IMG/VR virus record: IMGVR_UViG_3300024314_000455
Coordinates: 1 to 21,164 of that record
Length of the DNA stretch: 21,164 nt
Source: a virus
Direction: 5' to 3' (one strand)
The stretch's first letter is position 1. The number at the start of each line of letters is the position of its first letter. This document shows positions 1-17,080 of the stretch, piece by piece. The notes under the pieces are model-generated. The model did not search any database. It saw only the letters and a program-made list of their open reading frames with translations, and was not told where the DNA came from. Both the position numbers and the translations under genes were made by a program.

Positions 1-1162
1 GTGTTACTGATTTATAATCATGCTTTGCCTTTGCCACGAATTGCATATACTCGTTCATTGGTCCTTTGAAATATTCATAAGCGTATTCTTCCAAGATCGC
101 AGGTCCAAAGGGTCGAAACTGTTGGCGCCGTTTAACTTGATTAATAGTGTCCTTAATATCTCGTCTAGGGTCAGCGATAAGGCTACGATTGCCAAGGGCA
201 CGAGGGCCAAACTCACTACGACCATTTGCAATACCACAATAACTATGGTCAATAAGATGGCTAACAACTTCTTTAATTTTAATATCATTTTTTATATCCG
301 TTCCAAGGTATGGATCAACCCAATTTAACTTTTTACCATATGCTAACGCTGCAGCACCAAGAGACGATCCACAATCACCTGGGTTTGGCATAATCCAAAT
401 ATTTTTACCTAGTCCTGCTATTTTACTATTAGCAACACAATTAAGAGCCACGCCACCCATCATAACGAGATTACGAGAAGGGCAGTGTTTTAATACTAAA
501 TTAGTAAGTTTGGCTTCGACCACACTCTGAGCAGAGGACGCCAAATTCTCTTTACTTATATAACGTAACTCTGGAATATCAGGCAAACCTTTATGACAAT
601 TAACATTTTCTAATATATTTTCCATTAATAACGTTTCAGTTGGAAAACCAAAGGCTGCCATACCCATTGTTATATATTCATCTTCCATCGGTCTTAAACC
701 TAAGTACTTTGTAATTGCTGAATAAAACAATCCAATTGAGTACGGATATTTAAATGATTTAATCTTTTTCATTTGAGGTTTATCGTTTTTAGTCCAACCT
801 TTCCAAACAGAAACAGTGTCCCATTCGCCAATGGCATCAACAACCAATATGTTGCATTCGTCAAACTTTGAAGTATAGAAACCTGCAGCGGCATGCGATT
901 GATGATGGTAAAAAGAAACATCAGTTTTAATACGTGGCTTTGCATAAGGTTGACCAGCATATATTTGTCGTGTTCTTTTCAACCAATCCTTTTCATAAAA
1001 GGCAGTGGTATCGGCATCATCTATTTGAGTGTAGTGTAACCATCTATCGTTTTTAACACGACTTATTCTTTCAGCATGGGTGGCTGATAGTATATTTCCA
1101 TCTTGTATCAATGTTGCGCCAGCGTCGTGAAATCCTTCGCTTAAACCCAATATTTTACTCAT
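1..1162 (-). CDS. NodU/TobZ-family carbamoyltransferase, 3' end cut by window edge
   Basis: Reading from ATG at 1162, the frame stays open for 387 codons to the left edge, so the C-terminus lies outside the window. The family transfers carbamoyl from carbamoyl phosphate, via carbamoyl-adenylate, to a hydroxyl on a sugar or similar acceptor (NodU on Nod factor, TobZ on tobramycin). Visible signatures are the Kae1-like metal/nucleotide motif HHQSHAAAGFY (residues 86-96), GGVALNC (236-242), PGDCGSSLGAA (261-271), and the YrdC-like C-terminal part with EFGPRALGNRS (317-327) and QFRPFGPAIL (348-357). The start codon lies inside the preceding small gene (8 nt overlap), as is normal in this genome. 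It is the last visible gene of a sugar-modification cassette, so the acceptor is probably a phage-made or host glycan, or a modified nucleotide. The family call is secure; the acceptor is unknown. Confidence 0.93.
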   Translation of the reverse strand, partial: MSKILGLSEGFHDAGATLIQDGNILSATHAERISRVKNDRWLHYTQIDDADTTAFYEKDWLKRTRQIYAGQPYAKPRIKTDVSFYHHQSHAAAGFYTSKFDECNILVVDAIGEWDTVSVWKGWTKNDKPQMKKIKSFKYPYSIGLFYSAITKYLGLRPMEDEYITMGMAAFGFPTETLLMENILENVNCHKGLPDIPELRYISKENLASSAQSVVEAKLTNLVLKHCPSRNLVMMGGVALNCVANSKIAGLGKNIWIMPNPGDCGSSLGAAALAYGKKLNWVDPYLGTDIKNDIKIKEVVSHLIDHSYCGIANGRSEFGPRALGNRSLIADPRRDIKDTINQVKRRQQFRPFGPAILEEYAYEYFKGPMNEYMQFVAKAKHDYKSVT

Positions 1163-1334
1163 AAACAATTACACACTTTACTTGTTCGTTATTATTAAAT
1201 GGTCTATAATTAACAATAAACACAGCTTTATTTATTTCGCATTTAGTACGATCGTCATATTCTTTGATATAAGAATAGTTATTTACTTCAGCAGAAACCG
1301 TAGTGATAACCGTAAGTGCCCAAATAAAACTCAC
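1155..1334 (-). CDS. small exported protein of unknown function (GTG start)
   Basis: This is a 59-codon frame that begins with GTG at 1334, whose first base is also the last base of the upstream gene's TAG stop. No in-frame ATG exists upstream before a stop. The product starts MSFIWALTVITTVSAEVNNY, which looks like a short signal peptide with cleavage after VSA. The mature part is about 44 residues with two Cys (in TKCEINKA and VKCVIVYE) that could form a disulfide in the periplasm. It overlaps the carbamoyltransferase start by 8 nt. I do not recognise the family. The tight overlaps on both sides and the plausible signal peptide argue that it is real, but short length and the non-ATG start leave some doubt. 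Confidence 0.6.
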   Translation of the reverse strand: MSFIWALTVITTVSAEVNNYSYIKEYDDRTKCEINKAVFIVNYRPFNNNEQVKCVIVYE

Positions 1335-1528
1335 TATTCGCTACCAGTCCAATGACCACGAGTATGTGCTTTGCTAGTTAAATCAATAAGTCTGCCGATT
1401 ACTTTTTTCAATGTCTTTTTCGCAATTGGATTTGTTTCTTCATTAGCCAATACTTGCATAACATCAATTAATTTTAAGTCTTCTTGCATTACTTTGTTGA
1501 CATCATATGGTTCGCGTTTTTCAATCAT
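1334..1528 (-). CDS. small hypothetical protein, helical, 64 aa
   Basis: The 64-residue product begins MIEKREPYDVNKVMQEDLKL and is charged and predominantly helical in character, with no Cys, membrane segment or recognisable motif. Its ATG overlaps the TGA of the upstream gene (ATGA, 1525-1528) and its TAG shares one base with the GTG of the downstream gene, so it is translationally coupled on both sides. It lies between the cytidylyltransferase and the carbamoyltransferase. Function is unknown. Confidence 0.7.
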   Translation of the reverse strand: MIEKREPYDVNKVMQEDLKLIDVMQVLANEETNPIAKKTLKKVIGRLIDLTSKAHTRGHWTGSE

Positions 1529-1704
1529 CTTTGCACCAGAGGTTGTGACGATATGCTGTCGTTATAATCGTTATCACCATAGTAATCGCGGGTTGCGCTT
1601 TCTTTAGTCATAATTCCATTCTTAACACGATAGGTTACAATTTCTCTACGAATAACACCGTTAGTATCTGCGTCAAACGCACTTTTAAATGGTCCTTCAG
1701 TCAT
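1525..1704 (-). CDS. small hypothetical protein, 59 aa
   Basis: The frame from ATG at 1704 gives 59 residues beginning MTEGPFKSAFDADTNGVIRR and containing a RDYYGDNDYNDS stretch near the C-terminus. It starts inside the end of the cytidylyltransferase gene (8 nt overlap) and ends in an ATGA overlap with the next gene. The motif style (an arginine/threonine-rich beta section followed by an acidic-aromatic YxDxxYNDS segment) resembles short conserved proteins of marine T4-like phages, but I cannot assign a function. Confidence 0.68.
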   Translation of the reverse strand: MTEGPFKSAFDADTNGVIRREIVTYRVKNGIMTKESATRDYYGDNDYNDSISSQPLVQR

Positions 1705-2104
1705 TACATACTCTCTTTCTTAGATCACTCGTACTAAACCGATGATCTCTTTTATTAAAATATAATTCTATACCACGAGACCTACAAATGTCTTTACCGG
1801 TAAAATCTTGCGTTTTATATTCTTCGCCAAGAATTCGTATATCTATATGGTACATTGATAATATATCACATAAATCTGATTCTGTCAAATACGGAATGAT
1901 TTCGTCAACATAACTTACAGCTTTTAATTGCGTGTATCTTTCAACAATACTTTGGATAGGAGCATTCTTGTGAGAACGATCCGTTGCAGGATCCATTTGT
2001 AAACCACATAGTAAATAGTCGCATTGCTCTTTCGCTTCTCTCAACATTTGAACATGCCCAGCGTGGAGCAAATCAAATGCTGATGCCGTGAAACCAACAA
2101 TCAT
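1697..2104 (-). CDS. cytidylyltransferase-like nucleotidyltransferase (TagD/GCT-type)
   Basis: The 135-residue protein has the nucleotidyltransferase HxGH motif (HAGH at 14-17, within FDLLHAGHVQMLREAK), and a C-terminal RFSTSDLRKR segment (122-131) in the place of the RxxxISTT/S motif of CTP:glycerol-3-phosphate and related cytidylyltransferases. Length matches the small single-domain TagD class (about 130-140 aa). Such enzymes join a phosphorylated alcohol or sugar to CMP, releasing pyrophosphate. The ATG overlaps the stop of the upstream dehydrogenase gene (ATGA, 2101-2104). In this cassette it probably activates a polyol or sugar phosphate for transfer. Substrate cannot be read from sequence; ADP-heptose-synthase-type activity is an alternative. 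Confidence 0.88.
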   Translation of the reverse strand: MIVGFTASAFDLLHAGHVQMLREAKEQCDYLLCGLQMDPATDRSHKNAPIQSIVERYTQLKAVSYVDEIIPYLTESDLCDILSMYHIDIRILGEEYKTQDFTGKDICRSRGIELYFNKRDHRFSTSDLRKRVCND

Positions 2105-2850
2105 TCACGTATTCCTTTATTATAACTTATTGCTTTGCGTATAATGCTTAAATCATAACCAGATTTATTTGCGCTATACACAATGGCATTTGTATCCTTA
2201 GGGAAACAGTGCCCTCCAAATCCACGATCATCTTCATTAACGTATGTATGGCTTTTACCGATACGTGGATCGTCACTAACATTCATTAATAGTTCATTTG
2301 GTTCAACACCAGCATTTTTTGCCATATCATATATCTGATTGAAAAACGCCACCTTTGTTGCTAAGAACGCGTTTCTAAAATATTTAGTCAAAATTAAAAC
2401 TTCAGGATCTTTAACATCAACACGTACATTTAACGAATTGGATAATACCTCAAGCCAAAAACCAGTATCGCCACCGCCAATAGAAATTGACGAGTGCTTT
2501 CTGAAATCTTCAAAGGCATGAGCTGCTCGTAAGTATTCTGGTGAAAACGTTATTTGTCTATTACCATATCCACGGTTGAGTAATCTCCAGCCTTCTATGC
2601 TGATAGTTGATTTTATTAATATGGGAACATCGTTACACAATTCTAAACATTTATATACGTTATTCATATCACACATGCCATCTTCGCCTTCTGGCGTTGA
2701 CACTGCAATAATCACGGCATCAGCATTTTTAAATACTGATTTATCTTTATAACCTAATTGCGGATCCCAAACTTTAATATCATGGTCTGTTGATAAAAAT
2801 AGCCCGTGAGCCTTACCAACAAAACCATGACCACATATTACAATTTTCAT
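2101..2850 (-). CDS. short UDP-glucose/GDP-mannose dehydrogenase-family protein
   Basis: The start is placed at 2850 because that ATG overlaps the upstream TGA (ATGA). An in-frame ATG at 2865 would add five residues before the Rossmann strand. The 249-residue product begins MKIVICGHGFVGKAHG (NAD-binding GxGxxG-like loop), has FSPEYLR (103-109), the helix with TKYFRNAFLATKVAFFNQI (155-173), and the catalytic-cysteine loop FGGHCFPKDT (211-220, Cys215, Asp219). These are the hallmarks of enzymes that oxidise the C6 hydroxyl of an NDP-sugar to a carboxylate. Family members are usually about 390-450 residues; this one ends soon after the catalytic loop and lacks the C-terminal NDP-sugar-binding domain. 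It could act on a different substrate, need a partner, or be a minimal active form. Confidence 0.9.
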   Translation of the reverse strand: MKIVICGHGFVGKAHGLFLSTDHDIKVWDPQLGYKDKSVFKNADAVIIAVSTPEGEDGMCDMNNVYKCLELCNDVPILIKSTISIEGWRLLNRGYGNRQITFSPEYLRAAHAFEDFRKHSSISIGGGDTGFWLEVLSNSLNVRVDVKDPEVLILTKYFRNAFLATKVAFFNQIYDMAKNAGVEPNELLMNVSDDPRIGKSHTYVNEDDRGFGGHCFPKDTNAIVYSANKSGYDLSIIRKAISYNKGIRE

Positions 2851-3185
2851 TCCATATAAGTCCATTCATATTTTAGCCAATTAGGATGGCTCTTCATTAA
2901 TTCTACCTCGTTTGGTTTTTGATTTTGTAATGCTTTCCAAACGTGGTCAATCTTCTTTGTTAAATTATATTCCGATTTACGACACATGTATAATGATCCT
3001 GATGAACAATTAAAATGATATACATTATCTATACAATCTATTGACGTAATATCGTTGCTTATTCTCCAATCGTCGCTATTTCTAGGTTTTTCGTTAAACC
3101 CTGCGAGTACTCTGTAGTGGGATCCTTGTTCCTTCGTAACCTTTATCAGAACCCAACAATCTGGCAAATATTCGTGATTATTCAC
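2847..3185 (-). CDS. conserved-type hypothetical phage protein, 112 aa
   Basis: The product begins MNNHEYLPDCWVLIKVTKEQ. The N-terminal half looks like a small beta-rich domain (CWVLIKV, HYRVLAGF, VYHFNCSSGSLYMC), and the C-terminal half is helical and ends in a Trp/Tyr-rich stretch (NWLKYEWTYME). There are four Cys and many aromatics. The ATG overlaps the stop of the upstream gene by 8 nt and its own stop overlaps the dehydrogenase ATG. I do not recognise a named family; position within the sugar cassette is the only clue. Confidence 0.75.
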   Translation of the reverse strand: MNNHEYLPDCWVLIKVTKEQGSHYRVLAGFNEKPRNSDDWRISNDITSIDCIDNVYHFNCSSGSLYMCRKSEYNLTKKIDHVWKALQNQKPNEVELMKSHPNWLKYEWTYME

Positions 3186-3507
3186 GAACCTCTTTCCAAT
3201 TATGAATTAGTTTAAGCTTTTCTTCTTTTGAAACACCTTCTACCATGTGGGGATTATCTCTGTCCCATAATTGTAATACACGTTCTTCATCTAAAATAAA
3301 CGTGTCTAGAATTTGCTCACCTAACCAGTGTTGCGAAAATTCTTTAACTTCTTCCATAGTTACTGAGTCGTTTGTCCATTCAATAGCTTCTGCGATTGAT
3401 GGAACTTTTCCGTCTTCTTCCAACGCACTCATAGGTACGAGGTAACGCATGCGATGTGTAGACACCACAGTAGTCACGACATAACGTTCGTCGTTATCTT
3501 CTGACAT
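3178..3507 (-). CDS. hypothetical protein, 109 aa
   Basis: The start at 3507 is chosen because AAGGAGAA lies just upstream at ideal spacing; the in-frame ATG at 3534 would overlap the preceding gene and lacks such a site. The product begins MSEDNDERYVVTTVVSTHRM, is acidic, and contains a beta-type opening followed by helices (SIAEAIEWTNDSVTMEEVKEF). No catalytic motif or membrane segment is visible. The stop of the preceding 42-aa gene (TAAGGAG) forms part of this gene's ribosome binding site, so the two are probably co-translated. Function unknown. Confidence 0.78.
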   Translation of the reverse strand: MSEDNDERYVVTTVVSTHRMRYLVPMSALEEDGKVPSIAEAIEWTNDSVTMEEVKEFSQHWLGEQILDTFILDEERVLQLWDRDNPHMVEGVSKEEKLKLIHNWKEVRE

Positions 3508-3518
3508 TTGTATTCTCC

Positions 3519-3647
3519 TTAGTGATTTATCCAAATGACTTTAGCATATCTTGCGTCAAGCCATTCTCGATATTCTTGCGCGTCAATTTGGCACGCGAAG
3601 TATTTATTAACTTTTACATTCCCATAATATGCTTTAATTTGTACCAT
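3519..3647 (-). CDS. very small hypothetical protein, 42 aa
   Basis: The frame from ATG at 3647 to TAA at 3519 encodes 42 residues beginning MVQIKAYYGNVKVNKYFACQ and ending IWINH. It starts one base after the SleB-type hydrolase stop, with AGAGAAGA upstream as a weak ribosome binding site, and its stop lies within the next gene's ribosome binding site. It fills an otherwise empty gap between two genes of the same strand. No family recognised. Confidence 0.6.
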   Translation of the reverse strand: MVQIKAYYGNVKVNKYFACQIDAQEYREWLDARYAKVIWINH

Positions 3648-3648
3648 A

Positions 3649-4164
3649 TTAGTCTTCTCTATAAAAAATATGTGAACCCATACGTGCTACTCTATGCATA
3701 GAAGGTGCCCAGTATGGCGATACGTATGTAGCGTGGTAGTGTGTTGCGCTTTCTGTAATGCCACGATGTGTTTGGTGTACATACATATCACGAGCATGTT
3801 TACGTGACTTTTCCCAAGACTCATCATCCTGTGGTACATCTGACTTACCATCACAGTACCAAGAAAACTGGCATGTCACACGATTAGGTTTATAACCGTC
3901 TTGTACTACACCACAAACTGTATTTGGATAACGTGAACTTTCAACACGGTTTAATACCACATCAGATACTGATACTGCGTCAATAAGTGAAGACGCTCTG
4001 GTCTCATAATAGATGTTTAGAGCCATACACTCAAGTTCATCTGCGTGGAACTCAGCTAATGCTGCATCAACCTCCTGAGCCTTTAATTCGGAGCCCAATT
4101 GAATAAATCCTGCAAACGCAGTGGTATTAATAAGAAGTGCACAAATTGCTGTTTTAAGTTTCAT
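3649..4164 (-). CDS. exported SleB-type (Hydrolase_2) cell-wall hydrolase
   Basis: The 171-residue protein begins with a signal peptide (MKLKTAICALLINTTAFA, cleavage near residue 18). It then carries the Hydrolase_2 domain: ECMALNIYYETRASS (45-59, with Glu54 in the catalytic position), VVLNRVESSRYPNTVCGVV, then CQFSWYCDG, and a C-terminal THYHATYVSPYWA segment. This family includes spore-cortex lytic transglycosylase SleB and many phage or proteobacterial wall hydrolases. It probably cleaves the glycan backbone of peptidoglycan from the periplasm. A strong sigma70-type promoter lies just upstream (4199-4227). Its export signal and separation from the GH19 endolysin suggest a role other than final lysis, but a second lytic enzyme or a virion wall-digesting factor remains possible. 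Confidence 0.9.
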   Translation of the reverse strand: MKLKTAICALLINTTAFAGFIQLGSELKAQEVDAALAEFHADELECMALNIYYETRASSLIDAVSVSDVVLNRVESSRYPNTVCGVVQDGYKPNRVTCQFSWYCDGKSDVPQDDESWEKSRKHARDMYVHQTHRGITESATHYHATYVSPYWAPSMHRVARMGSHIFYRED

Positions 4165-4198
4165 AGTTTTTGCCTCAGTTTTTATATTTGTTGATTCT

Positions 4199-4227
4199 AA
4201 TATAACTGATTCTATACGCTATGTCAA
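4199..4227 (-). promoter_or_regulatory. sigma70-type promoter for SleB-type hydrolase and downstream sugar genes
   Basis: On the minus strand there is TTGACA (4227-4222), a 17-nt spacer, and TATATT (4204-4199), leaving a leader of roughly 30 nt before the ATG at 4164. The perfect -35, optimal spacing and position in a rare intergenic gap make a host-polymerase (early or middle) promoter likely. Confidence 0.75.
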
Positions 4228-4230
4228 TAG

Positions 4231-4479
4231 TTAATTGTGTCCAAAGTTACTTTTTATTTGAGTTAAAACGTTTGTTAGTTTAAATATCAAGCCTGACTTT
4301 TTGGCTTCATCTGACCAATAACTCTCGTCGCCAGTCAGATCCGATAGTACTTCAAGTAACATCATATTTTGATTCTTTATTATATCATGTTCTTTGTATA
4401 ACTCATTAATTTCTCTATTTAAATCTTTAATTTCAAGTCTTAATATGTCTATACTAGCACTGCCTGCCTTAACTTTCAT
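4231..4479 (-). CDS. small coiled-coil hypothetical protein, 82 aa
   Basis: The product begins MKVKAGSASIDILRLEIKDL and has a heptad-like helical stretch through about residue 45 (LRLEIKDLNREINELYKEHD), then a helical tail. No membrane segment or motif is visible. The ATG sits inside the last codons of the glycosyltransferase-sulfotransferase gene (11 nt overlap), and the gene ends just before the sigma70 promoter of the SleB-type hydrolase, so it is the last gene of the transcription unit that starts near 7679. Function unknown. Confidence 0.72.
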   Translation of the reverse strand: MKVKAGSASIDILRLEIKDLNREINELYKEHDIIKNQNMMLLEVLSDLTGDESYWSDEAKKSGLIFKLTNVLTQIKSNFGHN

Positions 4480-6007
4480 TACCGTATTTCTCGTAAAAAT
4501 CGTAGTCTATTTGGTAAACCTTTTTAATAAACGCGATTTGCTCTTCACTAAAATCATCAGCAGTGATTTCTTTTTTAGTTTGATTTAGCTTCTGTGTTAT
4601 TCCAAAGTGGCTGCAAACGTCATGCTTTTTAATTACCGTAAATCCAACGAATTTATCAATATCAATAAACCATGCCTGTGGGTGGAAATGATGTAATTGA
4701 TGTGCTGAACCAATTTTATGTAAATTAGCAAAGAAGTAGTCAATCTTTTCCTGTTTAGTACATTTACTTAGTTCAACTCCAAAGGTAGAAAATATATCTT
4801 CACCATAATGATAATATCTTTGCTTTTCAGTAACATATGCATTAATACATGAAACGAACCTTTCAACAGGATCTGAATATACAACAAGAGGTCTGCCTCG
4901 TGCATCATCGTATTCATCAGTATCTCTAAATACCTGTTTACGATCTGGGAATGTTTCTTTAACTGTTACACTGCAGCTTCTTGGTATTTCAAACCAATTT
5001 CGTTTACCATCAAGGTTATACATTAATGGGAACTTAAGCTTTTGACACCAAAAACAATTACATTTATTAAATTGAAAGTCTTTGTCTAATTTGGTTGTAG
5101 GCAATAAGAATTCTCTAATCTCAGGATCTTCAAGTGCCAATGCTGGTAATTTATCAATTGGAAATCTTTTTAAGATATGTGTGTTATTACCATCTGGCGC
5201 AGGACCTTCTTCCATTAGACTCTCGTCAAGTTTAGAGTATTCACTATAACCTCTAATATCTTCCATCCATTTAAAAGAGTCAAAGGCATGAGCAAAAGAG
5301 TCGGCTTTAACTTTTCGCGTTTCAGCTCCACCCATCCATGCGAAATGCCAACCCATATCTTGAATGATTTTGTTTTGATGAGTAGGCCAACGAACAGGAT
5401 AATGCATTGACCCACAACGTATTCTGTTTACAGACGTTTTCATAATCTGAAACTTAGTTGCAAAGAACATGGCTTTCCACCAAACTACGTGGCTGCCATC
5501 AGTATTAAATGCTCGTAAATCTGCGCGACCTTGCAAATATGCTAATGGTATTTTAAGAATAATTTCTGGATTATTCCTGCACATCTGAGCAACCCATTTA
5601 ACATTTTCTGGTTTAATGATTTCATCTGCATCACCATATATGAATACGTCGTTGTCATTAAAGTTATCCATGGCTTGCATAACAGCGTCTTTTTGTAAAC
5701 GCTCACGTACCCTAGCATATAAAGAGTTTTCACTGTCTCTATTTGCACCAGCATTAATCCTATCAACCTTTTCAATTACTAAGTCTTCTTGTTCAGCAAT
5801 ATCGTGTTCAACATAATGGATTTTTTCCATTGGTAAACCTTGCTGGCGTGCAATCTCTAAAAATTTACGTTCAACTGGTTTACCGCTGTGTGTTTTATTA
5901 GACTCAACAATAATAAACTTATCCACTACATCTTTTAAAAGATTAACTCTAAGTTTTAAGAGTTCAACTCCAGTAGGAGCAAAAAATGGAAAGCAATCAA
6001 CAATCAT
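4469..6007 (-). CDS. GT17 glycosyltransferase fused to sulfotransferase-like domain
   Basis: The 512-residue protein has two parts. Residues 1 to about 290 match glycosyltransferase family 17: MIVDCFPFFAPTGVELLKLR, FIIVESNKTHSGKP, then DNDVFIYGDADEIIKPE with a GDADE metal-binding DxD motif (125-129), and MGWHFAWMGG (218-227). GT17 enzymes transfer GlcNAc-like sugars. Residues about 335-512 resemble a carbohydrate sulfotransferase: IPRSCSVTVKETF (341-353) is where the PAPS 5'-phosphate loop would be, and SDPVERFVSCINAY (378-391) resembles the 3'-phosphate-binding RDPxxRxxS segment. A CNCFWCQ cluster (316-322, three Cys) lies between them. The start shares one base with the upstream stop (TAATG). 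The GT17 part is confident; sulfotransferase activity is inferred because the loop is atypical. Confidence 0.85.
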   Translation of the reverse strand: MIVDCFPFFAPTGVELLKLRVNLLKDVVDKFIIVESNKTHSGKPVERKFLEIARQQGLPMEKIHYVEHDIAEQEDLVIEKVDRINAGANRDSENSLYARVRERLQKDAVMQAMDNFNDNDVFIYGDADEIIKPENVKWVAQMCRNNPEIILKIPLAYLQGRADLRAFNTDGSHVVWWKAMFFATKFQIMKTSVNRIRCGSMHYPVRWPTHQNKIIQDMGWHFAWMGGAETRKVKADSFAHAFDSFKWMEDIRGYSEYSKLDESLMEEGPAPDGNNTHILKRFPIDKLPALALEDPEIREFLLPTTKLDKDFQFNKCNCFWCQKLKFPLMYNLDGKRNWFEIPRSCSVTVKETFPDRKQVFRDTDEYDDARGRPLVVYSDPVERFVSCINAYVTEKQRYYHYGEDIFSTFGVELSKCTKQEKIDYFFANLHKIGSAHQLHHFHPQAWFIDIDKFVGFTVIKKHDVCSHFGITQKLNQTKKEITADDFSEEQIAFIKKVYQIDYDFYEKYGNES

Positions 6008-6585
6008 TACTTGGTCCTCTCAAGTACAGTAAGTCCGTTATTATTAGTTCGGAATTCTTTAAATCTCCACTCAGGATTGTTAATAACAAAGTTAACGATT
6101 GGTCCAATTAAACCTTCATTAGGCATTGGTCGTTTATCAGCGAAATCTCTCCAGTTTTCTTTTTCATCTCTGCAGCCATATGTTTGAGTATCATGGAAAA
6201 CAAGGAACTTATTTGCTTTATTACCATGCATTGCTAGTTCACGTTTTAATTGAGAACCAGAGTGCCACGTATCAATAAAGAGTAAATCAGTTTGTTCTAT
6301 ATCAATATTCAGTACGTTTGCCTTTTCATATACAACATCTTTACCTACGGTTTTAGCTCTCTTAAATAACTCGCTTACTTCCCAGTTCAATTCAATATCA
6401 TATGACCTTAAGGCTGCATTTGTATTAAGGAATGCTTTGGTACTTTGACCATCTCGCACTCCCATTTCTGTAATATGTTCACATTCCATTCCTAAATTAA
6501 ATAGCAACTCAAGATGCTCGTTAATATCGGAAAATGTATTCTTGGCGTTATTATATTCGCCTTCTATAAATTGTACGAAACTCAT
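6007..6585 (-). CDS. class I SAM-dependent methyltransferase-like protein
   Basis: The start at 6585 is preferred because its ATG overlaps the upstream TGA (ATGA, 6582-6585); an in-frame ATG at 6618 would add 11 residues. The 192-residue product has ITEMGVRDGQSTKAFL (38-53), the usual glycine-rich SAM loop position with an acidic start, SYDIELN (61-67) as the second strand, DLLFIDTWHSGSQLKREL (100-117), and FLVFHDTQTYG (127-137). This pattern matches the small Methyltransf_24/cephalosporin-hydroxylase-like families that occur in sugar and surface-polysaccharide clusters. It probably methylates a sugar made by its neighbours. Substrate and exact family are not certain. Confidence 0.78.
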   Translation of the reverse strand: MSFVQFIEGEYNNAKNTFSDINEHLELLFNLGMECEHITEMGVRDGQSTKAFLNTNAALRSYDIELNWEVSELFKRAKTVGKDVVYEKANVLNIDIEQTDLLFIDTWHSGSQLKRELAMHGNKANKFLVFHDTQTYGCRDEKENWRDFADKRPMPNEGLIGPIVNFVINNPEWRFKEFRTNNNGLTVLERTK

Positions 6586-7607
6586 ATGTCTAACCACCTT
6601 GTGTTGTTTAATGTCCAATTAACTACCTCAGCAATACGTTGTTGTACTGGCTTTGGTTCCCATCCCATTTCTTTCATTCTATTACCACTTAAAGCATATC
6701 GTAAATCATGCCCTGGCCTTGAACTATGGAAATCCATAAACTCATAATTAAGTGGCTTATCTTGAGCATCAGCAATCATTTGAGCTAGTTCTAAATTATT
6801 TAATTCAGTTGCACCACAAATATTAAACTTTGGACATTTGACGCCAGAGTTATTAGTAATATTAAGTGTACCCTCATGTTCTAATAAAAACAGAGTTGCA
6901 TCTGCCACATCTTCGGCATGGATATAATGACGAGATCCTGGGATTGTTTTTGACGCATCACTATGGATTGTTACCTTACCACCATCTCGTACATTACGAA
7001 TAGTCATAGGAATAAATTTTTCAGGATGCTGTCTTTCGCCAAATACATTCATAGTATGTGTAATATAGATTGGCATGTTATAAGAATTTTGATATGCTAC
7101 ACAAAGCTCTTCAGCACCAGCCTTTGAAGCCGAGTACGGATTAGTTGAATTGTAACGATCGTATTCATCATAGTTAACACCTTCTGGCGCTGGACCAAAT
7201 ACTTCATCAGTTGAGAAATATAGGAAGCGTTCAAGGTTTTCTTGTTTACGTGCAAACTCTAAAATGTTACATGTACCGACAACATTATCCATAACAAATT
7301 CCATTGGAAAATCAATAGAACGATCTACGTGTGAACCCGCAGCCAAATGTGCTACAATATCAATTGGTCCAATATCAGCAATAAGCATTGGATTAAATTC
7401 AGCTTTTAAATCGTGGAAAATTGTACGAAGACGTTTGCGTTCTTCTGCAGTACGTTCTTGTAAGAGATCATGTAATCTGTTTAAATTACCGCTATAATCC
7501 AAACGATCAACTGTAATAATTTCCCAGTCGGTTTGTTTAAGTACTCGGTTAATTAAGTGGTGTGCGATAAAACCACCACCGCCGGTAATCAGAATTCTTT
7601 TTGACAT
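6582..7607 (-). CDS. dTDP-glucose 4,6-dehydratase-like (RmlB-type) SDR enzyme
   Basis: The 341-residue protein is an extended short-chain dehydrogenase. It opens with ILITGGGGFIAHHL (5-18, NAD-binding), then HLAAGSHVDRSIDFP (87-101), the catalytic TDE triad FSTDEVFGP (131-139) and YSASK (Tyr158, Lys162). The TDE set is specific to NDP-glucose 4,6-dehydratases rather than epimerases, so the likely reaction is NDP-hexose to 4-keto-6-deoxy-hexose. Length (341) fits RmlB (about 350). A strong ribosome binding site (AAGGAGAT) precedes ATG 7607. It is the first gene after the late promoter and hairpin at 7641-7679 and so heads the sugar cassette. Whether the nucleotide is dTDP, UDP or GDP is not known. 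Confidence 0.92.
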   Translation of the reverse strand: MSKRILITGGGGFIAHHLINRVLKQTDWEIITVDRLDYSGNLNRLHDLLQERTAEERKRLRTIFHDLKAEFNPMLIADIGPIDIVAHLAAGSHVDRSIDFPMEFVMDNVVGTCNILEFARKQENLERFLYFSTDEVFGPAPEGVNYDEYDRYNSTNPYSASKAGAEELCVAYQNSYNMPIYITHTMNVFGERQHPEKFIPMTIRNVRDGGKVTIHSDASKTIPGSRHYIHAEDVADATLFLLEHEGTLNITNNSGVKCPKFNICGATELNNLELAQMIADAQDKPLNYEFMDFHSSRPGHDLRYALSGNRMKEMGWEPKPVQQRIAEVVNWTLNNTRWLDI

Positions 7608-7680: not shown

Positions 7681-8625
7681 TTAAAATTTATATTTAATTG
7701 TTGCCTTTACACTATCATCAATGTTTGATGTTTGGCCAGTCCATGGGCTTACTTGTACCTTATCATTATGGTAATAAAGACCTAACTCTACTGGACCTTT
7801 TGTATGGATGGCTGCTAGGTAATTATATGTAAATCCTAAATCATCATCTGTTACATTATGCGCAGTAAACATTAATTCTTTACTATAGTTATACATAATA
7901 CCATAATCTTTACGAGTATTTTCTTTATCTTCCCATTGCTCATATCCTAGACCAATTGGAATACCCATTCGATGGAATGATGTACCGACTGCCATACCTT
8001 TTTGTGTTTCACCGTCTTCTGTATCAATTTGCATATATGATACGTCAACAATTTTTGCACGGGCAGTTACACCGTAATACATTGCTTTTGATTCCGGATC
8101 CCAAGCAACTACACCACCATATGGCATATCTCTTTTTAAACGATATGAATTAAATTCAAATTCGTCATTGTGATCCCATCCACCAAATGCTAATACTACT
8201 TTTTCTCGGTGGTCAATACGTGAGTTCTGTTTCGTAATAATAACTGGTGCACCAATTTTTGCTGTCTTAGCAAATCCTAAACGCTGAGCGTCTGTTTCAC
8301 CAACATATAATCTTGCTCCACCGATACCAAGACCCATTTGTTTCTCAGTAATTGTATTATCTAATGTACGATCTAACGCATAGTTTGTATCAAACCGCGC
8401 AGAAAAACCTGACCAATTTGCCAATGGATGGTCGAGATCTGTTTCATAACCTGCCATTGCTTCAAATCGAGTGTCTACATGACCTTCTGTATTCGTGTCG
8501 TCAATGTAGATTTCAAATGTACCATTAATGAAAGGACCATCTTTTGCTTCTGTATGGTCATGTCCACCAGCCATGGCACCTGATGCCATAAGTGATGCGA
8601 TAATAGTACTTGTAAATATTTTCAT
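7681..8625 (-). CDS. outer-membrane beta-barrel protein (porin-like) with signal peptide
   Basis: The 314-residue protein starts with a signal peptide (MKIFTSTIIASLMASGAMA, cut near residue 19). The rest consists of alternating hydrophobic/polar strands (FEIYIDDT, ARLYVGET, MYYGVTARAKIVDVSYMQ, GIMYNYSK, FTYNYLAAI, VELGLYYHND) and ends in KATIKYKF, with the C-terminal Phe used as an outer-membrane assembly signal. These are features of a Gram-negative porin barrel, and its length is near classical porins. A His-rich HDHTEAKDG stretch follows the cleavage site. The ribosome binding site AAGGAAT lies in the end of the DUF454 gene, two bases before this ATG. Possible roles are nutrient uptake during infection, receptor substitution or superinfection exclusion. 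The barrel call is good; the role is inference. Confidence 0.83.
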   Translation of the reverse strand: MKIFTSTIIASLMASGAMAGGHDHTEAKDGPFINGTFEIYIDDTNTEGHVDTRFEAMAGYETDLDHPLANWSGFSARFDTNYALDRTLDNTITEKQMGLGIGGARLYVGETDAQRLGFAKTAKIGAPVIITKQNSRIDHREKVVLAFGGWDHNDEFEFNSYRLKRDMPYGGVVAWDPESKAMYYGVTARAKIVDVSYMQIDTEDGETQKGMAVGTSFHRMGIPIGLGYEQWEDKENTRKDYGIMYNYSKELMFTAHNVTDDDLGFTYNYLAAIHTKGPVELGLYYHNDKVQVSPWTGQTSNIDDSVKATIKYKF

Positions 8626-9097: not shown

Positions 9098-10294
9098 TCA
9101 TTTCAATACTTCTTTCAGAGCTTCAACTAATTCTACCATCATTATATCGGTATGGTATGGAGTAGGTGCGATACGTAATCGCTCTGTACCTTGTTCCACT
9201 GTTGGAGAATTAATCGGTTGTATGTATATACCGAATTCGTTTATCAATCTATCCGAAGCTTCTTTGCATTTAAACGCATCATTGACCATCACTGGTATAA
9301 TGTGAGTGCAAGCGTTCGGATGAATGTTTATTCCTGCATCAATAAGCATGCCTTTAAGTTTGGCAACGCGTTCCTGATGTTTTTCTCTAAGGGAATTGTG
9401 ATCCTTTAGATAATTTATACTGGCGAGAGCCCCAGCACATATGACTGGTGACATACTGGTAGTGAATATGAACCCACTGGCAGTAGATCTAATAGCGTCA
9501 ATAATTGTTTGATTACCTGCAATGTAACCTCCTTGGACGCCGTATGCTTTGCCTAATGTACCGTTGACGATGTCGATACTACCAGAGTCTAAGTTTAGTT
9601 CTTCACAATACCCAGCGCCGGTTTTACCATAAAGACCTACTGCATGAACTTCATCTATATAAGTCATTGCCTTATATTTATATGCCAGATCCACTATAGA
9701 TTTTATAGGTGATACATCTCCATCCATTGAATATATTGACTCAAATACAATTACAGGATTAAGTTTGCGTTTGATAGCTAGTTTGAGTTTCTTTTCTAAA
9801 TCGTCCATATCGTTATGTTCAAATATTAGTTTCTCTGCTCTACTATTTACCATACCCATAATAATTGAGGCATGGTTCTTACTATCAGAAACAAAACATA
9901 AGTTTGGTATAATTTTAGATAAAGCAATAAGTGACCATTCATTTGCAACATATGCACTTGTAAATACCAAAGCTGATTGAGATTTATGTAGGGATGCTAT
10001 CTCGCGTTCTAGGGTAACGTGATAATGTGATGTTCCACCTATATTACGAGTACCACCTGATCCAGCACCTGTCTGATCCAAAGCAGTATGCATTGAATCA
10101 ATAACATATGGATTTTGACCCATTCCTAAATAATCATTAGAACACCAATTGACTATGTTTTTTGGAGCATATTTGCCATACCATATTGAACGAGGGAAAG
10201 ACCCTCGCTCTCTAAGTATATCGTTAAAGACTCTGTATCTGCCATCGGCTTTAAATTCTTTAACTGTATTTTCAAAATATTTCAGGTAGTTCAT
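9098..10294 (-). CDS. hemA: 5-aminolevulinate synthase
   Basis: The 398-residue protein is full length for ALA synthase (about 400). It condenses glycine and succinyl-CoA to 5-aminolevulinate using PLP, the first step of heme synthesis by the Shemin route of Alphaproteobacteria. Signatures include [11 protein letters not shown] (49-59), [17 protein letters not shown] (76-92), the PLP-contacting [10 protein letters not shown] (214-223), the Schiff-base lysine in [12 protein letters not shown] (Lys249), and the C-terminal [21 protein letters not shown] motif specific to ALAS rather than to KBL or AONS relatives. All expected catalytic positions are present. It begins four bases after the nrdA stop and overlaps the next start, so it is in the nrd transcription unit. 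I recall that viral ALAS genes have been reported from aquatic phage sequences. Confidence 0.96.
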
Positions 10295-16708: not shown

Positions 16709-17080
16709 TTACTTTGAGCAATATGATGCATATAAGCCTTCAAATTTAGCTTTATCGCAGCCATACTTTTCTTTCATCTTGCCGTACATTTCTGTTTTTG
16801 TACAAGATGCGTTTAGTTTTTTCATGTCAGCGCCGATTTTAGCATCGTCCGAGTCAGAATCATCATCGTCGTCTTTGTCATCATCGTCGTCGTCATCATC
16901 ATCTTCATCTTCGTCTTCATCATCGTCGTCTTTTGCTTCTTCTAAATCTTCTTCCATAGCAGATTTATATTTTTCTTCTAAAGCAGCAGCGATACGTGAT
17001 TGCATTTCTTCTGCGAATGCGTCTTTCATTTCCAATGGATTTTGATCCAACGCTTCTTTGATAATTTTTTCTAAAGACAT
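16709..17080 (-). CDS. Asp-tract acidic protein, possible prohead-core (gp67-like) protein
   Basis: The 123-residue product opens MSLEKIIKEALDQNPLEMKD and continues with a helix (AFAEEMQSRIAAALEEKYKS), then a very acidic low-complexity tract (residues about 51-79, almost only Asp/Glu), then a Lys/Cys-containing tail (LNASCTKTEMYGKMKEKYGCDKAKFEGLYASYCSK, three Cys). An amphipathic helix followed by an acidic tract is the plan of T4 gp67, a small prohead-core protein, and similar N-termini occur in marine T4-like prohead proteins. A late promoter (17120-17127) and a strong AAGGAGAT site precede it, as expected for a virion gene. The Cys-containing tail is not part of gp67, so the match is tentative. 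Confidence 0.72.
   Translation of the reverse strand: MSLEKIIKEALDQNPLEMKDAFAEEMQSRIAAALEEKYKSAMEEDLEEAKDDDDEDEDEDDDDDDDDDKDDDDDSDSDDAKIGADMKKLNASCTKTEMYGKMKEKYGCDKAKFEGLYASYCSK

Follow-up and report, generated by a model that had tools for sequence, protein, structure and literature searches.

T4-like cyanophages have a lipopolysaccharide (LPS) gene set consisting of T4-GC 260, 265, 266, 304, 305, 307 and 308, and the excerpted text of PMC3037559 regards it as unknown whether the sugar clusters of T4-like marine phages serve a function, using the term 'stuffer DNA'. In the excerpts of PMC3037559 and PMC7824862, such LPS or capsule clusters contain the RmlB-type gene T4-GC 265, HxGH nucleotidyltransferases, glycosyltransferases and carbamoyltransferases. 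Here we analysed a similar cassette at positions 1–7607 of IMGVR_UViG_3300024314_000455, the record of a T4-like marine phage; the window is this entire record of 21,164 bases. The cassette lies on the minus strand and encodes an RmlB-like nucleotide-sugar 4,6-dehydratase (rmlB), a methyltransferase-like protein, a fusion of a GT17 glycosyltransferase with a sulfotransferase-like half, a short UGDH-like dehydrogenase, an HxGH-type cytidylyltransferase-like protein (CT) and a NodU/TobZ-type carbamoyltransferase (NodU). A sequence-only reading had proposed that these six genes form a single pathway. We find that they fall into at least three modules and that the core genes are strongly selected.

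The cassette is conserved, selected and modular

The fusion was found in 61 other viral loci. These loci were collected by a scan with the fusion protein, so that the fusion is present in them by construction, and they are not independent, as clustering at 90% identity reduces their fusion proteins to 26. Linkage was counted only in loci with enough sequence to show the gene in question (eligible loci). Upstream of the fusion, rmlB was present in 50 of 50 and the methyltransferase in 56 of 57 eligible loci. Downstream, 40 eligible loci contained UGDH (33), CT (36), a phosphomannomutase (PMM; 38), NodU (16) and an SGNH-type protein (16). NodU and SGNH occurred together in 16 of the 40 loci and were both missing from the other 24, and neither was ever seen alone. 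Gene order was UGDH, CT, PMM in 38/38 loci and CT, NodU, SGNH, PMM in 16/16, and neighbouring open reading frames (ORFs) of the cassette overlap.

Selection was estimated as the ratio of nonsynonymous to synonymous substitution rates (dN/dS), given as medians over non-independent pairs with at least 75% amino-acid identity. For the core genes the medians were 0.057 (rmlB), 0.049 (methyltransferase), 0.047 (fusion) and 0.058 (CT), compared with 0.041 for nrdA and 0.053 for primase as reference genes; the other genes gave 0.136 (UGDH), 0.112 (NodU), 0.134 (PMM) and 0.290 (SGNH, 6 pairs). The core genes of this sugar cluster are thus under purifying selection as strong as that on replication genes and are not stuffer DNA. 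Recurrence in so many other loci together with purifying selection argues that the set did not assemble by chance.

A different picture emerged outside the group when each cassette gene was used in turn as the anchor of a scan, with up to 80 loci kept per scan; some loci with separate genes are short, so absences in them are lower-quality evidence. With rmlB as anchor, 21 divergent loci (up to 80% identity) had no relatives of the methyltransferase, GT17, UGDH or NodU by tblastn, and CT was present in 3 of them. Six of these loci, read by eye, had other ORFs resembling glycosyltransferase, methyltransferase, aminotransferase or sugar genes. The methyltransferase scan contained two outside loci, L209 and L227, in which an rmlB relative with 63% identity lies ~1.7 kb upstream of the methyltransferase. 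The UGDH scan returned 28 divergent loci (48–52% identity), 27 of which lacked the other cassette genes while one carried CT and PMM. NodU was followed by SGNH within 5.5 kb downstream in 24 of 47 loci with room for it (up to 71% identity); the same 47 loci contained UGDH in 10 cases, a weak rmlB match in 2 and other cassette genes in none. CT had PMM within 8 kb in 46/80 loci and UGDH in 15/80, with 5 of the 80 being group members. In five loci that we read, the CT–PMM pair lay downstream of an ORF of 887–899 aa, identified as DNA polymerase B in the one case checked.

These independent, gene-by-gene anchors weakened the idea of one pathway for all six genes. The part that stands is its behaviour within the group, where the genes are linked, their ORFs overlap and they are selected intact; outside it, the genes do occur apart in relatives, rmlB and UGDH singly and NodU–SGNH as a pair of its own. 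The cassette consists of three modules: rmlB with the methyltransferase and the GT17 fusion (module A), UGDH–CT–PMM (module B) and NodU–SGNH (module C). A kit of separable decorating modules describes it better than a single fixed pathway does. Since each module has different partners, its target, whether fibre, host surface or DNA, can be tested module by module.

Enzymes and neighbouring genes

All six family assignments of the sequence-only reading were recovered, with strengths that vary between them. That gene list needs three amendments: its UGDH is a short version, support for its methyltransferase is weak, and genes unrelated to sugars are scattered through it. The RmlB-like protein (341 aa, 6585–7607) matches Pfam Epimerase (6.5e-50) and RmlB structures, the best solved-structure relative at 2.3e-47. 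STDE and YxxxK, extended-SDR motifs that are catalytic in RmlB-type enzymes, are present in 50/50 and 48/50 relatives, respectively. Because its score against TIGR01181 (245.8 bits) is below the equivalog cut-off of 365, we call it RmlB-like and leave nucleotide and sugar unassigned. The product of 6010–6618 (start at 6618 or 6597) is a probable S-adenosylmethionine-dependent methyltransferase, similar to Methyltransf_24 and CmcI and probably acting on sugar oxygens; we say probable because the window copy (Pfam E 0.06, 14.7 bits) is below the gathering score of 26.3. The family was matched at E ≤ 0.1 in 18/21 members (best 4.9e-4), RMNT_CmcI was also matched by two (best 5.2e-4), and sequence relatives in the PDB were not found.

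The two halves of the 512-aa fusion differ in how readily they are recognised. The GT17 half (5110–6007) scores 38.1 bits against a gathering score of 26 for PF04724 (1.2e-9), the family is matched at E ≤ 0.1 by 23/23 aligned members, and the half was modelled as a GT-A glycosyltransferase (best Z 11.6). For the putative sulfotransferase-fold half (4472–5109) there was no Pfam match in the window copy, and Sulfotransfer_2 was matched at E ≤ 0.1 by 6/23 members (best 0.0011). When residues 304–512 were modelled, the first 49 of 50 structure matches were sulfotransferases plus three retinol dehydratases, which are sulfotransferase relatives. The top matches were heparan-sulfate sulfotransferases (Z 7.0, root-mean-square deviation 4.2, 154 aligned residues) and the fiftieth was an adenylate kinase (Z 3.8); Foldseek gave no E below 0.19 for this half. 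Direct sequence comparison of the fusion with the PDB yielded nothing convincing, and among 50,697 phage records it had one weak match. Four relatives of 319–320 aa lack the sulfotransferase-like half. In L211 (10551–12119, plus strand), where the window fusion has its sulfotransferase-like half, a GT17 protein has a C-terminal part with a match to phrog_1644, 'minor coat protein' (1e-31).

The UGDH-like protein (254 aa, 2101–2865) has two of the three UGDH domains, the NAD and central domains (PF00984, 3.9e-22; PF03721, 6e-8), and lacks the C-terminal nucleotide-sugar domain PF03720. This short form is general: 41 full-length relatives are 248–261 aa long, all 41 have the motifs G(F/Y)GGHC(F/L)PKD and SPE, and PF03720 was not among the families matched by any of 21 members. 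We also asked if a separate ORF supplies PF03720 and found no match in 10 group records, with the same search positive in 14/14 control genomes. CT (135 aa, 1697–2104; PF01467, 4.3e-12) is nearest in known structures to ethanolamine-phosphate (4.4e-23) and glycerol-3-phosphate (9.2e-13) cytidylyltransferases. The carbamoyltransferase gene (2–1162) has its 3′ end beyond the window (Carbam_trans_N, 1.2e-37; Carbam_trans_C, 4.5e-24). A complete version of 455 aa (2.3e-37 and 8e-47 for the same two domains), which matches the novobiocin, GdmN and TobZ enzymes, is present in an 82-kb sister contig (L002) whose fusion protein is 100% identical to the window copy. A search left of the window for more sugar genes, as the sequence-only reading had suggested, was rewarded in this contig by the SGNH-type protein (Lipase_GDSL_2, a weak 6.8e-4) and a eukaryotic-type PMM (PF03332, 5.5e-30).

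Four further minus-strand genes lie among these. An 82-aa ORF (4231–4479) with no function assigned overlaps the fusion gene and has relatives in most group loci. It is followed by a Hydrolase_2 cell-wall hydrolase (endolysin-like; 3649–4164, 3.2e-21), itself not a sugar gene, by a 118-aa ORF without a family match that is kept across the group (3178–3534) and by a 112-aa ORF with no family above cut-off (2847–3185).

Upstream of the cassette, a full 5-aminolevulinate synthase gene, hemA (9098–10294, minus strand), scores 543.5 bits against a TIGR01821 cut-off of 338.55, and hemA is found there in 41/43 eligible group loci. The first-listed match of its product in the phage collection, where 19 records match, is 36.5% identical, and a viral 5-aminolevulinate synthase gene is mentioned in an excerpt of PMC13390420. 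One phage contig (L131, 2377–3573, minus strand) combines 5-aminolevulinate synthase, DUF454 and a relative of the short UGDH, with the other cassette genes undetected by tblastn. In the window, a 314-aa protein (7681–8625, minus strand) between DUF454 and rmlB has a start that resembles a signal peptide by eye and has relatives in part of the group, and a small protein (16709–17080, minus strand) contains a long Asp/Glu run. In a scan that covered 84,980 species with one genome each, fusion relatives turned up in a single bin, Rhodobacteraceae bacterium Water_Bin34. All three of its contigs that carry them have the phage gene order with hemA and for that reason look like phage contigs; this binning, itself weak evidence, and the hemA gene hint at marine Rhodobacteraceae as hosts of the group.

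Candidate acceptors of the proposed glycan

We tentatively favour a modular glycan kit of T4-like marine phages whose core decorates the phage's own tail fibres. The data establish the gene identities, their linkage, modularity and selection, and we infer the substrates, the order of steps and the acceptor as follows. In module A, the RmlB-like enzyme would make an NDP-4-keto-6-deoxyhexose, the methyltransferase would O-methylate the sugar, and the GT17–sulfotransferase fusion would attach it to a tail-fibre glycan and sulfate it. In module B, PMM would make a hexose-1-phosphate that the HxGH cytidylyltransferase would activate and the short UGDH oxidise, yielding a second donor. The optional module C would add carbamoyl groups and perhaps edit acyl groups.

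The fibre is favoured for module A because relatives of its parts, and a GH130-like gene that accompanies them, lie near fibre genes. Among 30 methyltransferase loci outside the group (L204–L234; L206, a group member, was dropped), GT17 is close to the methyltransferase in 20, and the same 20 carry the weakly GH130-like gene. Methyltransferase and GT17 form a single ORF in L205, L231 and L234, and L219 adds a repeat protein in the same ORF. Collagen-like ORFs occur among the long neighbours of these loci, and each of the four long ORFs that were checked has a match among tail-fibre or virion PHROGs. In the cyanophage isolate DSL-LC02, tail-fibre and collagen-like genes surround FkbM genes and a relative of the GH130-like gene; in S-SCSM2R such a relative lies 1.3 kb after nrdB, next to a gene with the annotation baseplate wedge/tail pin. 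Within the group the GH130-like gene was seen in 3 of 38 records searched, the only ones whose sequence extends at least ~45 kb past the cassette on its downstream side. In G004 and G005 it is separated from rmlB by ~49 kb. In G003 it occupies the opposite end of the linear record, where a 3119-aa ORF with tail-fibre PHROG matches (4.5e-23) lies 0.8 kb away. The labels GH130 and TPR (tetratricopeptide repeat), first given by eye, have weak family support (GH130 E 0.0044 in L211; TPR below cut-off in G003 and L211 and just above it in DSL-LC02). The rmlB relative of ACG-2014f has tail-collar fibre genes and a glycosyltransferase as neighbours, and that of S-SRM01 has a sulfotransferase, a glycosyltransferase and ORFs resembling fibre genes. 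The S-SRM01 'beta-1,4-glycosyltransferase', considered as a fusion relative, did not match the fusion profile. In the isolate S-SCSM1 the rmlB relative directly follows four carbamoyltransferase ORFs. The gene neighbourhoods of relatives lean towards fibres for the methyltransferase–GT17 half and point, in part, to hydroxymethylcytosine for the remainder.

Several observations weigh against a fibre acceptor. The cassette of the window group adjoins nrdAB–hemA and not a fibre locus, the S-SM2 rmlB relative sits in the cyanophage LPS cluster, and in other loci module B goes with DNA polymerase or dCMP hydroxymethylase genes. GT17 is missing from 10/30 of the outside methyltransferase loci, and many loci are near-duplicates, with ten of the 20 outside GT17–methyltransferase loci sharing one layout. 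Family cut-offs are not reached by the methyltransferase, sulfotransferase and GH130 calls or by most TPR calls. For module A, the case for fibres draws on relatives of its parts, and both the product and the glycan are predictions from genes alone. The most specific form of the proposal, in which a methyltransferase–GT17–sulfotransferase route places an O-methylated, sulfated 6-deoxy-sugar (carbamoylated in some members) on the phage's own fibres alongside a UGDH without a nucleotide-sugar-binding domain, is one we hold to be rather doubtful. If it is true, the phage would have an unusual surface, with a fibre glycan that is sulfated and methylated.

A possible but on balance doubtful alternative is that the enzymes remodel the host surface, altering the LPS or capsule of the infected cell and, for example, blocking superinfection or grazing, a role that has been proposed for the LPS clusters of T4-like cyanophages. 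PAPS-type sulfotransferase and NodU chemistries suit surface glycans. P-SSM2, S-SM2 and S-SSM7 share seven LPS genes (excerpt of PMC3037559), and T4-GC 265, the rmlB relative, is among them. Such clusters, including ones with carbamoyltransferases, are read as capsule or metabolite systems in the excerpt of PMC7824862. The position of methyltransferase–GT17 among fibre genes in relatives argues against this, as does that of a neighbour-gene relative in an isolate, and a flippase, polymerase or ligase was not noticed, although no search was aimed at them.

On the evidence that follows, it is unlikely that the product of module B, possibly with NodU, is a sugar or carbamoyl group destined for 5-hydroxymethylcytosine (5hmC) in phage DNA; if it is, hydroxymethylcytosine bearing a sugar would add one more modification against restriction. 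This explanation was raised by a 221-kb group relative, G003, which encodes a T4-type dCMP hydroxymethylase (1.3e-61 to 1b49; L067 6822–7517, minus strand, corresponding to G003 86822–87517), so that its DNA likely contains hydroxymethylcytosine. The neighbours of this gene resemble, by eye, dCMP deaminase, cytosine methyltransferase and glycosyltransferase genes. CT relatives are present in 16/40 hydroxymethylase loci, and in L414 (2664–5810) five contiguous, overlapping genes for dCMP hydroxymethylase, PMM, CT, a longer UGDH (32% identity) and dCMP deaminase make up a candidate hydroxymethylcytosine-sugar operon. NodU relatives and hydroxymethylase occur together in three records (G051, G052 and G056), and a phage carbamoyltransferase that acts on 5hmC has been proven (excerpt of PMC8670742).

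DNA modification lost ground as the leading explanation through the counts from CT records and the NodU residues. Of 38 group records, nearly all of them fragments, one encoded the hydroxymethylase and two more had weak matches at 34%; the enzyme was not found in the 82-kb sister contig of the window phage, also a fragment. It was present in 1/26 CT records, was not found in two long ones (144 and 151 kb), and lay within 8 kb of CT in 4/80 loci. Among 31 hydroxymethylase records NodU was present in one, G003 itself. The window-type NodU differs from the proven 5hmC enzyme in two of three residues: at TobZ positions 408/421/423, mapped by spacing and not by alignment to TobZ, the sister-contig protein has I, G and R and the proven enzyme I, C and T, and 69/69 matches to the motif read GNR or GTR. 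The UGDHs beside hydroxymethylase are 32–35% identical to the short form and longer, with 272–298 aa in four loci read. A search for TET/JBP gave no match in 10 records and none above cut-off in control genomes either, and G003 was the only one of 10 records to match an RmlA-type NTP_transferase.

It is improbable that the sugar genes are unlinked cargo, gathered in a variable region and sharing no function. The separation of modules in relatives and the interspersed non-sugar genes would fit this reading; the strong purifying selection on core genes, the fixed gene order, the all-or-none NodU–SGNH pair and the methyltransferase–GT17 fusions speak against it.

Relation to known systems

NodS, NodH and NodU carry out the methyl, sulfo and carbamoyl decoration of rhizobial Nod factors, and the comparison with these enzymes made in the sequence-only reading holds at the level of chemistry. 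It does not extend to the enzyme itself, as the 387-aa window fragment of the carbamoyltransferase scores 79.3 bits against the 1000-bit cut-off of the NodU equivalog NF041651. Mycobacteriophages have glycans on virion proteins (Freeman 2023, via PMC12619734), and the excerpt of PMC12619734 that cites this work mentions no sulfo, carbamoyl or RmlB part.

Two DNA-modifying systems share features with the cassette. The 5hmC carbamoyltransferase of an uncultured phage (excerpt of PMC8670742) belongs to the same family, and a relative of the window phage has dCMP hydroxymethylase, but the window type differs at TobZ 421/423 and its neighbours are SGNH and sugar genes. The arabinosyl-hydroxymethylcytosine module of RB69 (excerpt of PMC6024577) has sugar genes near a T4-like DNA polymerase, as do CT and PMM in relatives of the window phage; its enzymes resemble sugar isomerases and NTP transferases, whereas those of the cassette are PMM, HxGH CT and UGDH.

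In a non-exhaustive search of open-licence papers we found no title or opening of an abstract that names this gene combination. The T4-GC 265-type rmlB genes of S-SM2, S-SRM01, S-SCSM1 and ACG-2014f are 67–73% identical to that of the window, a comparison with the cyanophage LPS gene set that covers the 265-type rmlB only. Compared with the cyanophage clusters, the window cassette has a fixed trio of rmlB, methyltransferase and GT17–sulfotransferase, a short UGDH, a eukaryotic-type PMM and a place next to hemA. The cassette is a variation on the known sugar ('LPS') clusters of T4-like cyanophages, and its unusual parts are the short UGDH and the GT17–sulfotransferase fusion.

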